A stretch of 62,590 bases of DNA. It comes from an uncultured Candidatus Saccharibacteria bacterium (GTDB lineage: Bacteria > Patescibacteriota > Saccharimonadia > Saccharimonadales > Saccharimonadaceae). Below the pieces are notes generated by a model. It saw only the letters and a list, made by a program, of their open reading frames with translations. It did not search any database and was not told where the DNA came from. Within the stretch, counting starts at the first letter, position 1, and every line of letters begins with the position of its first letter. Made by a program: the position numbers and the translations under genes. Shown one piece after another: positions 16,098 through 21,191 of this stretch. Location of the stretch: positions 1 through 62,590 of the forward strand of contig CAMNGP010000003.1 of NCBI GenBank assembly GCA_946538495.1, given 5' to 3'.

Positions 16098-16122
16098 AAA
16101 TCGCCCCACGGGGCGATTTTTG
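16098..16122 (+). terminator. Rho-independent terminator
   Basis: Nine-pair hairpin AAATCGCCC/GGGCGATTT with a short loop followed by TT(G)T, 20 bp after the 67-residue gene. Confidence 0.85.
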
Positions 16123-16217
16123 TCGGTTGAGTAGGTATCAACAAGCCGCGAAAGATATGCACGAAGGGGCAGAGTTATGCTATTATGAAGACATAAGTAT
16201 TTTAGAAAGGACAATTA

Positions 16218-16775
16218 ATGGAACAAAATACTGACAATGGAATGTCGGCGGCATCAGCAGTAGACAGCAAGCAAGAAAATGGAAATGGCTTAAAAATTGC
16301 TACTGCGATTGCGTGTGTTGTGGCGGTTTGTGGTATTGGGTTTGGCGTTTATGGTATGATTGATGCTGGCTCTGCGAAAGATTTAGTTTTTTCAAAGAAT
16401 GCTAAAATTTCCGATTTGAATAGTGAGGTGACCAATTTGAACGCAAGAATAAAGGATCTAGAAGACCAAATCAATAAGCAACAAGATTATTCTGATCAGG
16501 ATAACGATGAGTCGGAACAGACATCGGTGAATAGTAGTGATTTGACAGCGGAGGTGCAAGATGGAGTTTTTGTATTAAAAAATAGTAACGGAATGGTTGT
16601 GACGCAAGATACTACTAAAAATATTGCAGAAATAATTTCTTGTGATTCTGGGACGAATAGCTCAAATTCTCCGTTAAAATGTACCGCAAAAACAATAGAT
16701 GGTAAAAGTGTTTGGTTTATTTACGATTTCGAGGGCGGAGAATTAAAGTCCGGATATTCTTCCGTCGATTATTAA
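16218..16775 (+). CDS. Single-pass membrane protein with coiled coil, cassette paralog 1
   Basis: 185 residues. A short polar cytoplasmic N-terminus starting MEQNTDNG is followed by a membrane segment at about 25-48 (GLKIATAIACVVAVCG), a coiled coil at about 60-92, an acidic linker, and a C-terminal outside domain with two cysteines. The first 50 residues, and the upstream motif with AGAAAGGA, are nearly the same as in the 209-residue protein at 20272, while the C-terminal domains differ. The pair are modular surface proteins sharing an anchor. Family not recognised. Confidence 0.85.
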   Translation: MEQNTDNGMSAASAVDSKQENGNGLKIATAIACVVAVCGIGFGVYGMIDAGSAKDLVFSKNAKISDLNSEVTNLNARIKDLEDQINKQQDYSDQDNDESEQTSVNSSDLTAEVQDGVFVLKNSNGMVVTQDTTKNIAEIISCDSGTNSSNSPLKCTAKTIDGKSVWFIYDFEGGELKSGYSSVDY

Positions 16776-16787
16776 GACATGATTTTT

Positions 16788-16983
16788 TAGGGTATTAACA
16801 GACGAATTTATAGGGGTGAAACGACAGTTTTTGCCCCATTTTTCGCGCAAGAACGGCACAAAATAGTACCCTGGAGCTTGCAGGGTACTTAACAGAAATT
16901 TACCACTAAAAAATCGGCGAAAATGCCGAGTTTCTTAAAATCTGGTGGGGCTTAATTCGCCAGGCTTTAACAGCATATAAAGA
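16788..16983 (+). repeat. Cassette repeat R1
   Basis: First clear copy of the array repeat. It starts TAGGGTATTAACAGAC, contains a hairpin GTACCCT/AGGGTAC (about 16866-16888), a second hairpin TCGGC/GCCGA, the core TGGTGGGG at 16943-16950, then CAGGC-TTAACA. The right half closely matches R3 and R4. Confidence 0.85.
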
Positions 16984-17024
16984 AATATATCATGGGCATG
17001 GAGATGATATGATATAATACGATT

Positions 17025-18143
17025 ATGGAAAATGGTAATGCTAATTTTGAAGACCAAAATTTGCGACAACAACCAAAGATTAATAATCTGCAAATCGATT
17101 TTACGGGTTCATCTCAAGTGACACCATCATTAGAGTCAACAACACAGGTTCAGCCGCCAGTTTCCGATATTAGTACAAATACACCCATGTCATCATCTTT
17201 TTTTAGTGGCGCTTCACCTCAAGACTCCTTACCGTATGGCGTAACACAGAAAATGCCCGCTGATTTTACTACAAATATAGATAAGAAAATAAGATTCTGG
17301 AAGAGGTTTTCTTTCATAATCGGACTAATTACGTTTTTTAGCTATATCTTTGTTCTTATTGGCGCAAATGTCTTGGCGCATGGAACACAATTCGGATGGG
17401 TAATCTTCATGATGTTCGGCATGGCTTGGAATGGATTGATTATTGTACTATTCGTATTGTCGTTAATCTCTCTTATAAGAGTGGTAATCTTAAGCAGTCG
17501 ACGCAAAAAACATGTTTTCAAAGATTATGTTATGGTTGTTGTAGGCTTATTATTGATTTTTTCACCATACGCGATTAGCGGCGTTTTATCATTCTTCAGG
17601 ATATCATGGAACGAGGATAGCGGCGTCTTCGTAACTTTAAAATCAAAAGATCCATATTATTTAAGTGGTGATAGTTCGTGGGGCGAGTTAGATTGCACTA
17701 AAATGAAGAAAACCGGAACATCTAATGACCTAAAGGGTATTGATATAGATGACAAATATAGTTATGTTGACGACAAAGAAAGAAGGAAGCTATTCGCGGC
17801 AGAATACTATGTGAAACAAATAGGTGAAGAAATAATATGCCAAGTGGGGGAATTCTATAGAAAAGAGGGACGATATCCGAATGAAACCGAAATCGAAGAC
17901 TTTTCTTCAAGTGCGATCAATGATGACGTAAGGGCTGGAATATACAACGTAAAACTCGAAGTTGGAGCCGAGCCAAATAATAAAGATTTTACCGTTCTAT
18001 TTGATAGAAACTGTACTAATAAAACAGTCAAGGACGGGAATGTAGTGGTCTTATCGCCACTTTATGGAGATGATGGCAGATATTGCGTTTATCAAACTAT
18101 TGACGAAATACGACTGGAAGATTTTCTAAACGAAGGGGTTTAA
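17025..18143 (+). CDS. Multi-pass membrane protein with extracellular domain (cassette unit)
   Basis: 372 residues. The N-terminal 85 residues are a polar, Gln/Pro/Ser-rich disordered cytoplasmic region. Three hydrophobic segments follow (about 90-115, 122-150, 168-190), then a soluble domain of about 180 residues with several cysteines (ELDCTKM, EEIICQVG, NCTNK, RYCVYQ), predicted outside. TATAAT ends 6 bp before ATG (leaderless). It overlaps the start of repeat R2 by a few bases. I do not recognise the family; the C-terminal part recalls variable surface or pilin-like domains, which is only an impression. Confidence 0.8.
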   Translation: MENGNANFEDQNLRQQPKINNLQIDFTGSSQVTPSLESTTQVQPPVSDISTNTPMSSSFFSGASPQDSLPYGVTQKMPADFTTNIDKKIRFWKRFSFIIGLITFFSYIFVLIGANVLAHGTQFGWVIFMMFGMAWNGLIIVLFVLSLISLIRVVILSSRRKKHVFKDYVMVVVGLLLIFSPYAISGVLSFFRISWNEDSGVFVTLKSKDPYYLSGDSSWGELDCTKMKKTGTSNDLKGIDIDDKYSYVDDKERRKLFAAEYYVKQIGEEIICQVGEFYRKEGRYPNETEIEDFSSSAINDDVRAGIYNVKLEVGAEPNNKDFTVLFDRNCTNKTVKDGNVVVLSPLYGDDGRYCVYQTIDEIRLEDFLNEGV

Positions 18144-18327
18144 CCGACAAAATTATAGAGGTAAATTGTGATTTTTAGCATGTTTTTGTTACAAAAATGG
18201 CATAAAAATAGCCCTCTATTTTCGTGAGGGATTTAATAGACATTTATAGATTACGGAATAGTTGAAAATTATTTTATAACCTGAATGGTGGGGACGAATT
18301 GGGCAGGCATTAACAATCTATAGAGAC
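18137..18327 (+). repeat. Cassette repeat R2 (most diverged)
   Basis: Shares order and motifs with R1 and R3: TTAAC-GACAAATTA near the start, a CCCTC/GAGGG hairpin at about 18212-18230, core TGGTGGGG at 18286-18293, and the right-end motif CAGGCATTAACAATCTATA, which is identical to R3. Confidence 0.7.
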
Positions 18328-18476
18328 GAAATAAGAAACAAACTAGCCAATTTATAAACTAATAGCCAAAATACGTCAAATATTATTAACTGGGGTGGCT
18401 ATTCGGTTTTGTCAATTCTATTTCGACAAAAAATGGAGTATTTTGCCCCTGTTACAATTCTTTTGTTGTTACAATA

Positions 18477-18505
18477 TTGACAAAAATAATCATATGTGCT
18501 ATAAT
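18477..18505 (+). promoter_or_regulatory. Consensus promoter with TGTG extension (gene at 18810)
   Basis: TTGACA (18477-18482), 17-bp spacer ending TGTGC, then TATAAT (18500-18505). The same arrangement with a TGTG extension stands before the genes at 34430, 35159 and 50122. Confidence 0.85.
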
Positions 18506-18511
18506 GTAAGC

Positions 18512-18689
18512 ATAAGCTTGAGAGGCCTACTTCTCGGGAGCTTATAGCAAATGAAGAATCTATAGTAACAATTAAAAGTTGTGCTATAGGATGATTCATT
18601 TTAACAATCGGTTACGCAAGTCATTTGTTTCCTCCATCTTATGGACAGCGTAAGGCTAACTAGAGGGTTGGCCGTACGCTGTTCATAAG
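18512..18689 (+). promoter_or_regulatory. Long structured 5' leader with three hairpins
   Basis: Within the 300-nt leader of the 359-residue gene lie three successive hairpins. One is ATAAGCT/AGCTTAT (18512-18545). The second pairs GAATC and CTATAG arms (18556-18597). The third is a long stem (18638-18689) built from CTTATG/CATAAG, CAGCGTA/TACGCTG and GGCTAAC/GTTGGCC. The leader could regulate translation or stabilise the mRNA. It matches no riboswitch known to me. Confidence 0.65.
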
Positions 18690-18809
18690 GACAGTGAAGC
18701 CGTTTGAAGAGAGAGACAATTACTGATCCTGACTAATCTTATCAAAATCAAGGAAAGGTAACTGTATCTTTCAGAGAACACAGTCATTCGTTTTTAGGAG
18801 GGTAAAAAA

Positions 18810-19889
18810 ATGAAGAAAATGACAAAAAATCAGGTAGTAGTAGTGAAGCACATTCTCGGCGAGACCGCAGCTCCTCTGGTAGAGGATCTCGGAAACGGTA
18901 AGTATCGCTTTAAGGTGGACGCTTGGTGTGAGGGAGAGACCTGTAAGGGTGGGTTCTTCCATCTTCGTCAAGCTATTGAGGCGAAACCCGGCAAGAGAAT
19001 TACCAACAGGGTGAACTTTTGGCCCAGACTGAGGCTTGCCCTGCATAACGCGGGCGAGCAGCCTGTCAATATCCCGGGTGGGGATAATCCGCTGCATTAT
19101 ACCGACCAGATGGCGGTAGCGGATTATTCAGTGTCTGGCGCTCACTACTTCATCATCGAGCGTGCAGATATCGGTAAGTATCTTGATTCTCTGCCGCTTG
19201 ATGAGCGTGGGGTCAAGCATCGAGAAGCGATTGAGGAGCGCAAGAAGGCTGAAGAAGCCGAAGCGTATCGTCAAGAACATGACCCGAAGTGCATTGCTGA
19301 AAGGATCGGCGACAGGTTGTGGTATGCGATGCCTGGATGTGCGTTGACTGGGAACACGGAGTTCAACAGGATCACGCTTGTAGCGAAGGACGGTTCCGAA
19401 TTTTCGGTCATTTATCCGTCTTGGACTACGGACTTGATTTCTGGCCTTGGCTGCTGCAACGTGGCCAAGGTGGTATGCTCTGCTCCAGAAGAAACGGAAC
19501 TTCAGTATCTCGACGCTCGTCGTGCTGGAGAGCTTGATCCGCGTCAGCATTATAGAATTAAGAAGATCTATTCTGCTGGATGGTGCAAGTATTCAGCATA
19601 TCTTATGCCACTTGCCGGTCTTGCTACCGAAGTTCGTCATGGTTATCGCTGGCTTGCAATGTTTGATAGCAGCGATAATGACGGGGTTGATCCGCTTCTT
19701 ATCGCCGAAGCAGAACGAGTAATTCTTGAGACGTTTGATCTCTATGACCGAATCAACAAGAAGAGGCTCGTTTATGAAGCTTCGACGAAAGAGGTTCATG
19801 TGGAGTATCTCCACAATGATCCTCAGGATTGGTCGGACAGAAGCAAGTTTAATAAGGCCCCCGAGTGGAGCGAAGAGGAGGTTGCGTAA
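18810..19889 (+). CDS. GC-rich cytoplasmic hypothetical protein (cassette unit)
   Basis: 359 residues, no signal or membrane segment. It has a mixed alpha/beta N-terminal region (about 1-110), a charged helical linker (about 128-155, ERKKAEEAEAYRQ) and a cysteine-containing C-terminal region (CCNVAKVVCSAP near 213). I do not recognise a family. Codon use is clearly richer in G/C at third positions than its neighbours, suggesting a different origin. AGGAGGG lies 7 bp before ATG. It has its own strong promoter, a 300-nt structured leader and tandem terminators, within a repeat-bounded unit. Confidence 0.85.
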   Translation: MKKMTKNQVVVVKHILGETAAPLVEDLGNGKYRFKVDAWCEGETCKGGFFHLRQAIEAKPGKRITNRVNFWPRLRLALHNAGEQPVNIPGGDNPLHYTDQMAVADYSVSGAHYFIIERADIGKYLDSLPLDERGVKHREAIEERKKAEEAEAYRQEHDPKCIAERIGDRLWYAMPGCALTGNTEFNRITLVAKDGSEFSVIYPSWTTDLISGLGCCNVAKVVCSAPEETELQYLDARRAGELDPRQHYRIKKIYSAGWCKYSAYLMPLAGLATEVRHGYRWLAMFDSSDNDGVDPLLIAEAERVILETFDLYDRINKKRLVYEASTKEVHVEYLHNDPQDWSDRSKFNKAPEWSEEEVA

Positions 19890-19937
19890 CAGATTCAAAA
19901 GTGCACCATCACTTTAAACTGGTATAGCTCAACATCA

Positions 19938-20000
19938 CTACCCTCGGGCTTCGGTCCGGGGGTAAACCTTTTTAAGAAAGCCGCGAAAGCGGTGTTTTTT
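19938..20000 (+). terminator. Tandem terminator hairpins
   Basis: A CTACCC/GGGTAA-type hairpin with CGG/CCG inner pairs (about 19938-19965) is followed by GCCGC-GAAA-GCGGT and a six-T run ending near 20000, downstream of the 359-residue gene. Confidence 0.8.
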
Positions 20001-20013
20001 ATACCTGATTGTC

Positions 20014-20208
20014 TAGGGTATTAACAGACAAATTAATAGGGGTGAAAATGTGCTTTCGGGCACATTTTTCGTGCAGAAACGACACAAAATTGCATACTAG
20101 AACTTTCGAGGTAATTAACAGAAAAATACTACTAAAAAATCGGCCAAAATGCCGAGTTATATAAAATCTGGTGGGGGCGAATTAGCCAGGCATTAACAAT
20201 CTATAAGG
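20014..20208 (+). repeat. Cassette repeat R3
   Basis: Starts TAGGGTATTAACAGACAAA and ends CATTAACAATCTATAAGG. About 51 bp of its right half, up to and including TGGTGGGGG at 20169-20177, is identical to the sequence just downstream of tRNA-Ile (R4). Confidence 0.88.
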
Positions 20209-20271
20209 AAGACATTCGAAAAAATTTAACCATGTTATAATAGAAACATAAGTATTTTAGAAAGGAATTCA

Positions 20272-20901
20272 ATGGAACAAAATGCTGATACTGGAGCGCC
20301 AATGACGCCAGTAATAGACAATAAGCAAAAAAGTGGAAATGGCTTAAAAATCGTTACAGCGATTGCGTGCATTGTGGCGGTCTGTGGTATTGGGTTTGGT
20401 GTTTATGGTATGATACAAAGTACACAAAAAGACAACCAGATTTCTGATTTAAAAAATCAAATTGAAAGCTTAAATGGTAAGATATCTTCACTTGAGATCT
20501 ACGACGATGAAGATGGAGGTGCCGACAACGAGGCGAAAGACGACCCAACAGCCGTCGTGAATGGCGATTCGAAAGATTATATCTATGTTGGCGAATGGAG
20601 TTTTAAAATTAAAAAACCTGAAAACTGGAGAGACTTAGTCCAAAAATATGTTTATTATAACGACTATCCTCAGGCAGTGGACACCTTTGAGATAATAGAA
20701 AATGAAAGCTTAGCAACTTCGCATGCGATGATTTCTCCAGGGAATGGTAATTGTAGAGATGATGAATGGACAGATTGTGTCGAAATAAAGTTAGGAGAGG
20801 AATCTATATTGGACGTAAGAGTGCCAAAATCTGATTCGGGCTCAGTTTCGGAAGACTTTAGAAATTGGGTTACTAATTCGGACAACTATTCAAGAATATA
20901 A
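20272..20901 (+). CDS. Single-pass membrane protein with coiled coil, cassette paralog 2
   Basis: 209 residues. The first 50 residues match the protein at 16218 closely (GNGLKIVTAIACIVAVCG membrane segment at about 24-47). A short coiled coil follows (about 55-75), then an acidic linker and a different outside domain with one cysteine pair (GNCRDDEWTDC near 158). The upstream sequence with AGAAAGGA is also shared. Anchor and promoter are therefore conserved while the exposed domain varies, as expected for exchangeable surface modules. Function unknown. Confidence 0.85.
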   Translation: MEQNADTGAPMTPVIDNKQKSGNGLKIVTAIACIVAVCGIGFGVYGMIQSTQKDNQISDLKNQIESLNGKISSLEIYDDEDGGADNEAKDDPTAVVNGDSKDYIYVGEWSFKIKKPENWRDLVQKYVYYNDYPQAVDTFEIIENESLATSHAMISPGNGNCRDDEWTDCVEIKLGEESILDVRVPKSDSGSVSEDFRNWVTNSDNYSRI

Positions 20902-20911
20902 CCGAACAAGA

Positions 20912-20944
20912 AAAGCATCGTAGATTCAATCTGCGGTGCTTTTT
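20912..20944 (+). terminator. Rho-independent terminator
   Basis: Hairpin of about 12 pairs with small mismatches (AGCATCGTAGAT / ATCTGCGGTGCT) followed by TTTTTG, just after the 209-residue gene. Confidence 0.75.
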
Positions 20945-20960
20945 GTGCGACCAAATTGTT

Positions 20961-21114
20961 TAGGGCATTAACAGACATTTTAACAGGGGTAGAAACTACA
21001 TTTTTAGCAGGTTTTTGCTGTAAAAATACCCCAAAATTGCGTACTATTGCTGCAGGGTACTTAACAGACATTTACTACTAAAAAATCGGCCAAAATGCCG
21101 AGTTATATAAAATC
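20961..21114 (+). repeat. Cassette repeat R4, the natural 3' flank of tRNA-Ile
   Basis: Starts TAGGGCATTAACAGAC and runs to the tRNA-Ile CCA end. It includes the tRNA's own reverse-strand terminator (21080-21101: TCGGC/GCCGA stem plus six-T run). Because R1-R3 repeat this flank, R4 probably represents the ancestral target. Confidence 0.85.
21080..21101 (-). terminator. Terminator of tRNA-Ile
   Basis: On the reverse strand the stem TCGGC/GCCGA with a six-base loop is followed by six T, 14 bp after the CCA end. Copies of this terminator are carried in R1 and R3. Confidence 0.8.
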
Positions 21115-21191
21115 TGGTGGGGGTACTTGGACTCGAACCAAGGACACTGCGTGTATAAGACGCATGCTCTAACCAACTGAGCTATACCCCC
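21115..21191 (-). tRNA. tRNA-Ile (anticodon TAT)
   Basis: Anticodon stem TGCGT/ACGCA, loop CTTATAC, so the anticodon is UAU, reading AUA directly. CCA is encoded. Most bacteria read AUA with a CAU tRNA modified to lysidine by TilS; a UAU tRNA-Ile is uncommon in bacteria. Its 3' end is the anchor of the cassette array. Confidence 0.92.

Follow-up and report, generated by a model that had tools for sequence, protein, structure and literature searches.

A tandem array of single-gene units at tRNA-Ile(UAU)

The window, that is, the whole stretch of 62,590 nucleotides that was analysed, is contig C3 of a 579 kb assembly (15 contigs, 79% complete) of an uncultured Candidatus Saccharibacteria bacterium. 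Between 16.1 and 21.1 kb it holds four cassettes that abut the CCA end of tRNA-Ile(UAU), each consisting of one plus-strand cargo gene followed by a related repeat of ~150–170 nt (Table 1). The core TGGTGGGG lies at the three internal junctions, each time directly followed by a left-end motif, and the same word is the CCA end of the tRNA. Rechecking of the sequence, repeats, ORFs and tRNA confirmed the four-unit tandem array described in an earlier note on this DNA. The junction word and left-end motif claimed there hold at the internal junctions but not in unit 1, the leftmost, whose decayed left end lacks TGGTGGGG. The identity of about 51 bp noted between R3 and R4 is exactly 51 bases, and the run ends in TGGTGGGGG. 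An Rfam search of the array matched the tRNA only. No recombinase gene was found in or beside the array, and the two PF00589 loci of the genome are elsewhere; the second, a divergent tyrosine recombinase of 280 aa (L002, contig C7), is unlinked to cassette ends.

The cargo varies in GC content and includes two paralogs, as the earlier note had proposed. Unit 3 has ~50% GC and the other units ~37–39%; the 185-aa and 209-aa genes are 83% identical in their 5' part and divergent beyond it. The N-terminal part common to these two proteins contains one predicted membrane segment and their C-terminal parts differ; relatives with this N-terminal part occur in cassettes of two other loci (L274 and L276). 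In unit 3, a promoter-like site with a perfect match to TTGACA-17-TATAAT and then a ~300 nt leader lie ahead of the cargo gene, at positions 18477–18809. Elsewhere in the window, GC content rises to 0.59 between 34000 and 39000, well over the remainder.

Table 1. Features of the cassette array, in window positions
Feature	Positions	Strand	Remarks
Decayed left end, unit 1, core gone	16121–16147	+	CGGTTGAGTAGGTATCAACAAG versus CGAATTGGGCAGGTATTAACAA of the orthologous locus L274, by eye
Cargo gene, unit 1	16218–16775	+	185 aa; N-terminal part as in unit 4 gene
Right end R1	16780–16942	+	type T, with hairpin; remnant of the 3' coding part of the integrase
Core TGGTGGGG and left end, unit 2	16943–17005	+	reads WWGLIRQALTAYKE...
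Cargo gene, unit 2	17025–18143	+	372 aa; predicted membrane segments (by eye)
Right end R2	18140–18285	+	type U, without hairpin; starts at unit 2 cargo stop codon
Core and left end, unit 3	18286–18348	+	reads WWGRIGQALTIYRDEIRNKLANL*
Cargo gene, unit 3	18810–19889	+	359 aa; ~50% GC
Right end R3	20008–20168	+	type T
Core and left end, unit 4	20169–20231	+	reads WWGRISQALTIYKEDIRKNLTML*
Cargo gene, unit 4	20272–20901	+	209 aa; paralog of unit 1 gene in N-terminal part only
Right end R4	20950–21114	+	type T; abuts tRNA
Terminator-like hairpin downstream of tRNA	21086–21101	-	cassette-borne; fold z-score weak, -1.18
Counterparts of this hairpin	20140–20155 (R3); 16914–16929 (R1)		
tRNA-Ile(UAU), anchor site	21115–21191	-	CCA end 21115–21122 = core

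Cassette ends derive from a large serine integrase gene

Sequence comparison traced the cassette ends to the 3' coding end of a large serine integrase gene. The left ends encode a conserved peptide, WWGRIGQALTIYKEDIRNKL, and vary as codons do: within their first 16 codons, stops occur in 15 of 126 in this frame, compared with 124/126 and 103/126 in the other frames. The peptide is the C-terminus of a serine recombinase of 391 aa at locus L312, which has PF07508 and PF13408 domains and lacks the catalytic resolvase domain. In this integrase gene the right end (165 nt), the core and the left end (60 nt) lie in one frame within the last ~80 codons. Two right-end consensus sequences are identical to the integrase 3' end at 114/166 (69%) and 110/167 (66%) positions, and some right ends still encode the integrase tail (91% amino-acid identity at L355; 79% at L350/L327). 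Therefore, the integrase gene contains an attP site whose two halves form the cassette ends. TTAACAG repeats, considered as arm-binding sites of a tyrosine integrase, are instead codons of the serine integrase tail. The right end has a fixed start, which suggests one ancestral mini-element whose gene was replaced many times.

Full-length integrases (L380 and L377) have Resolvase, Recombinase and zinc-ribbon domains (PF00239, PF07508 and PF13408), and their 3' ends contain the right-end sequence. L380 encodes a relative of the L312 protein (565 aa, 63% identical; PF00239 at 2.9e-21, PF07508 and PF13408; PHROG integrase at 2.6e-67) that matches solved large serine recombinases in sequence and is integrated at tRNA-Val(CAC) with the core TGGTGGGG. 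We regard it as the best candidate for a helper. In integrated full-length integrases, which lie at Val, Gln, Pro, Leu, Ser, Gly, Arg, Ala and Tyr tRNAs, the frame crosses the antisense CCA end of the tRNA as a Trp codon and runs on into the tRNA.

The window's genus has integrase homologues in 55 of 174 genomes and a second genus in 12 of 45; across the phylum, relatives occur in 160 of 287 genomes, and the CCA end is read in frame as Trp at 20 of the best 30 loci. Full-length integrases with a matching core are rare. A serine integrase was found neither in this genome, at its 79% completeness, nor, at 1e-8, in G144, the genome richest in cassettes.

Anatomy and cargo of the cassettes

Profile models called 151 complete cassettes with a median length of 1003 bp. 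Exactly one ORF (threshold, at least 80 aa) is present in 133 of them; 130 ORFs run along the array direction and 37 opposite to it. TATAAT stands 50–110 nt from the core in 80/151 cassettes, versus 8 in a control stretch. Cargo falls into 98 clusters, with Pfam families including GNAT, NUDIX, SDR, aminotransferase, peptide deformylase, LysE, AadA-type adenylyltransferase and HNH, and with matches to some defence-related models. The window units and nearly all others carry no integrase gene. The exception is a 7.6 kb unit (L312 9482–17211), in which the truncated serine integrase is accompanied by a BsoBI-like restriction enzyme, a DNA methylase and a SMODS/DncV-like nucleotidyltransferase, possibly a defence cargo.

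The 204 distinct right ends surveyed lead into a left end in 85 cases, exactly into the 3' end of a tRNA in 85 and into something else in 34; TGGTG or close variants and the tRNA T-arm are common to all in this survey. Type T right ends, which have an intrinsic-terminator-like hairpin on the tRNA strand, precede 46 tRNAs, and type U ends, without a hairpin, 39.

Distribution

The earlier note suggested a search for the same repeat elsewhere, which revealed a second array with the same ends and two genes at tRNA-Val(CAC) in this genome (L014 1863–3819, contig C15) and cassettes in many other Saccharibacteria. Genomes were compared at one per species and are mostly metagenome assemblies. Of 199 genomes of the family, 21 matched the left-end pattern and none the reversed pattern, which rules out chance. 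A search of 85,000 species genomes returned 102 stretches, mostly from ruminant gut; the titles among the matches listed are all Candidatus Saccharibacteria except one 'uncultured bacterium'. With the peptide search of 393 genomes, cassette ends were found in 2 of the 156 genera of the order. The single match in a third genus (G073), with three mismatches and inside an apparent coding sequence, was set aside as probably due to chance. A viral origin was rejected, because the pattern had no match in 2.9 million viral contigs and the left-end peptide none in phage records.

Anchors are mostly Met, Val, Phe, Ile and Ala tRNAs. Tandem arrays reach seven or eight cassettes, and G144 has arrays of about seven at tRNA-Met and tRNA-Ala.

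Cassettes are inserted and transferred as units

We read the tRNA-Ile locus in 20 species of the same genus; sister species have it empty or filled with different cassettes. It is empty in L280, L283 and L284, with a terminator alone between the neighbouring gene and the tRNA, and in L274 it is occupied by two different cassettes, cleanly joined at TGGTGGGGG. These empty and occupied orthologous sites bear out what the earlier note had postulated from this locus, namely that whole units of one gene were inserted repeatedly at a single tRNA end and that the breakpoints fall in TGGTGGGG; further evidence came from transfers and from the pairing of ends.

One cassette body occurs with ~95% identity at tRNA-Phe, in a tRNA-Ala array and in an array with Met nearest downstream; another is present at Met, Phe and Val tRNAs (93–95% identity). 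Overall, the near-identical cassettes that occupy different tRNAs of different species share 93–97% identity, whereas conserved flanking proteins diverge by tens of percent between the species compared at the tRNA-Ile locus. Therefore, to judge from these identities, such cassettes were likely transferred recently. Left and right end types are associated within a cassette (74/10/3/45, p=8e-22) and not across neighbouring cassettes (p=0.68), and thus cassettes travel as units.

A model for cassette movement and its alternatives

We consider it highly probable that these are non-autonomous single-gene integrative cassettes, mobilised in trans and bounded by attP halves from a serine integrase gene. 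A unit of ~1 kb would comprise a left attachment half, one gene with a promoter-like -10 box, from which it may be expressed, and a right attachment half, the two halves being the sides of an attP within the 3' coding end of the integrase gene. Recombination would cross over at or near the Trp codon TGG, the reverse complement of CCA. The cassette circle would bear a complete attP, and a related full-length element would provide, in trans, the complete integrase that joins it to the 3' end of a tRNA. Repeated events would stack cassettes at one tRNA, one insertion after another. Each insertion would leave the tRNA intact, and a type T right end may provide a new terminator. Against this scheme stand the rarity of full-length integrases with a matching core, the negative integrase searches in this genome and in G144, the missing catalytic domain at L312, and the usual preference of serine integrases for one unique site, in contrast to the ten or more tRNAs used here. 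So many tRNAs are likely accepted because CCA, discriminator A and the T-arm are common to them.

The earlier note looked for a tyrosine recombinase as the mover, and a host Xer protein or a phage integrase acting at the tRNA end has to be weighed against the serine integrase. Ends of tRNA genes are classic targets of tyrosine integrases, and every cassette genome tested encodes at least one PF00589 protein, this genome two. However, the cassette ends come from a serine integrase gene, no such ends were seen at the tyrosine recombinase loci as far as these were read, including both in this genome, and six genomes with cassette ends (G195, G001, G169, G094, G136 and G128) have a Xer-type recombinase and no second one. 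A tyrosine mover is accordingly very improbable. It is also improbable, though to a lesser degree, that the arrays were made long ago by an integrase and now vary mainly by homologous recombination between common ends, through general machinery after natural transformation. Right ends do offer ~165 nt of common sequence, with 51 identical bases in R3 and R4, and many cassette genomes lack the helper integrase; yet the clean junctions at empty sites, the single cassettes standing at many different tRNAs and the close pairing of left and right end types without mixing across neighbours all fit site-specific insertion of whole units.

That the repeats are nothing but shared tRNA terminators beside a hotspot of gene turnover, a reading close to one that the earlier note named as a refutation, agrees with the hairpin of type T ends on the tRNA strand and their presence before 46 tRNAs. 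This much of it stands, but the 39 tRNAs preceded by hairpin-free type U ends, the left ends, the integrase homology, the unit structure and the transfers are left without an account. We rejected static terminator repeats on the evidence of the left ends and the integrase homology, and hardly any probability attaches to them.

Comparison with known systems

That the joining sites come from a serine integrase gene points to an integron-like capture with a different enzyme class, by which some gut Saccharibacteria would collect single genes in tandem at tRNA ends. The genomes of Saccharibacteria are very small, the cells live on other bacteria, and little is known of how they acquire genes; a concrete route would be cassettes of one gene each at the ends of tRNAs, common to several species. 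No description of such cassettes was found in the literature searched.

Like class 1 and chromosomal integrons, the arrays consist of tandem, mostly single-gene cassettes (133/151) with a common recombination site, diverse cargo and one anchored end. Unlike integrons, they involve a serine integrase and not IntI, their sites are attP halves from integrase coding sequence, many tRNAs serve as anchors, the cassettes contain promoter-like boxes, and the array has no integrase gene. An IntI-type tyrosine recombinase gene was not found next to the array, nor were attC sites at the cassette ends, which are homologous to integrase coding sequence and gave no Rfam match besides the tRNA. On balance we favour a serine-integrase counterpart of the integron, in which single-gene cassettes would form a population-wide pool, be mobilised in trans and accumulate in tandem at many tRNA genes, enabled by an attP in the integrase 3' coding end at a codon mirroring the universal CCA. 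It would show that integron-like gene collection can arise from another enzyme class, and integrases accepting many tRNA ends could serve as tools.

Staphylococcal cassette chromosome (SCC) elements, many kb long, use large serine recombinases and stand in tandem at the end of rlmH, and some members lack the recombinase. The cassettes resemble SCC and pseudo-SCC in the large serine recombinase, in tandem elements at one gene end and in recombinase-less members; they differ in being single genes at many tRNAs and not many-kb elements with ccr at rlmH. Tycheposons, of 4–200 kb, use a tyrosine recombinase, and additive flexible genomic islands have repeated tRNA ends in front of variable content (PMC10872708). 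The arrays are likewise variable islands anchored at a tRNA, but the cassettes are ~1 kb (median 1.0 kb), with serine integrase ends.

The archaeal 'suicidal' SSV-type integrases are tyrosine recombinases, are described as restricted to archaea and are split by integration, and their movement in trans by a relative has likewise been proposed (PMC8371274). As in these, attP lies inside the integrase gene and integration at a tRNA alters that gene, to judge from the reading frame, which runs across the CCA end both where integrases of this clade are integrated and at the 20 phylum loci. Unlike them, the enzyme here is a serine integrase (PF00239/PF07508/PF13408) and only the C-terminal tail is exchanged, so that the system would be a bacterial serine-integrase parallel to archaeal integrases with attP in their own gene. 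It shares the Resolvase, Recombinase and zinc-ribbon domains and the match to solved structures with phage-type large serine integrases (SPbeta YokA and A118), but, unlike these, it has its attP at a Trp codon within the 3' coding end of its own gene and targets tRNA CCA ends. Integrases matched to their sites, as in large serine integrase elements, are present at L380 and L377, whereas nearly all cassettes encode none of their own. At loci L351–L364 and L394–L423, the C-terminal tail of many large serine integrases in the integrated state is antisense tRNA.
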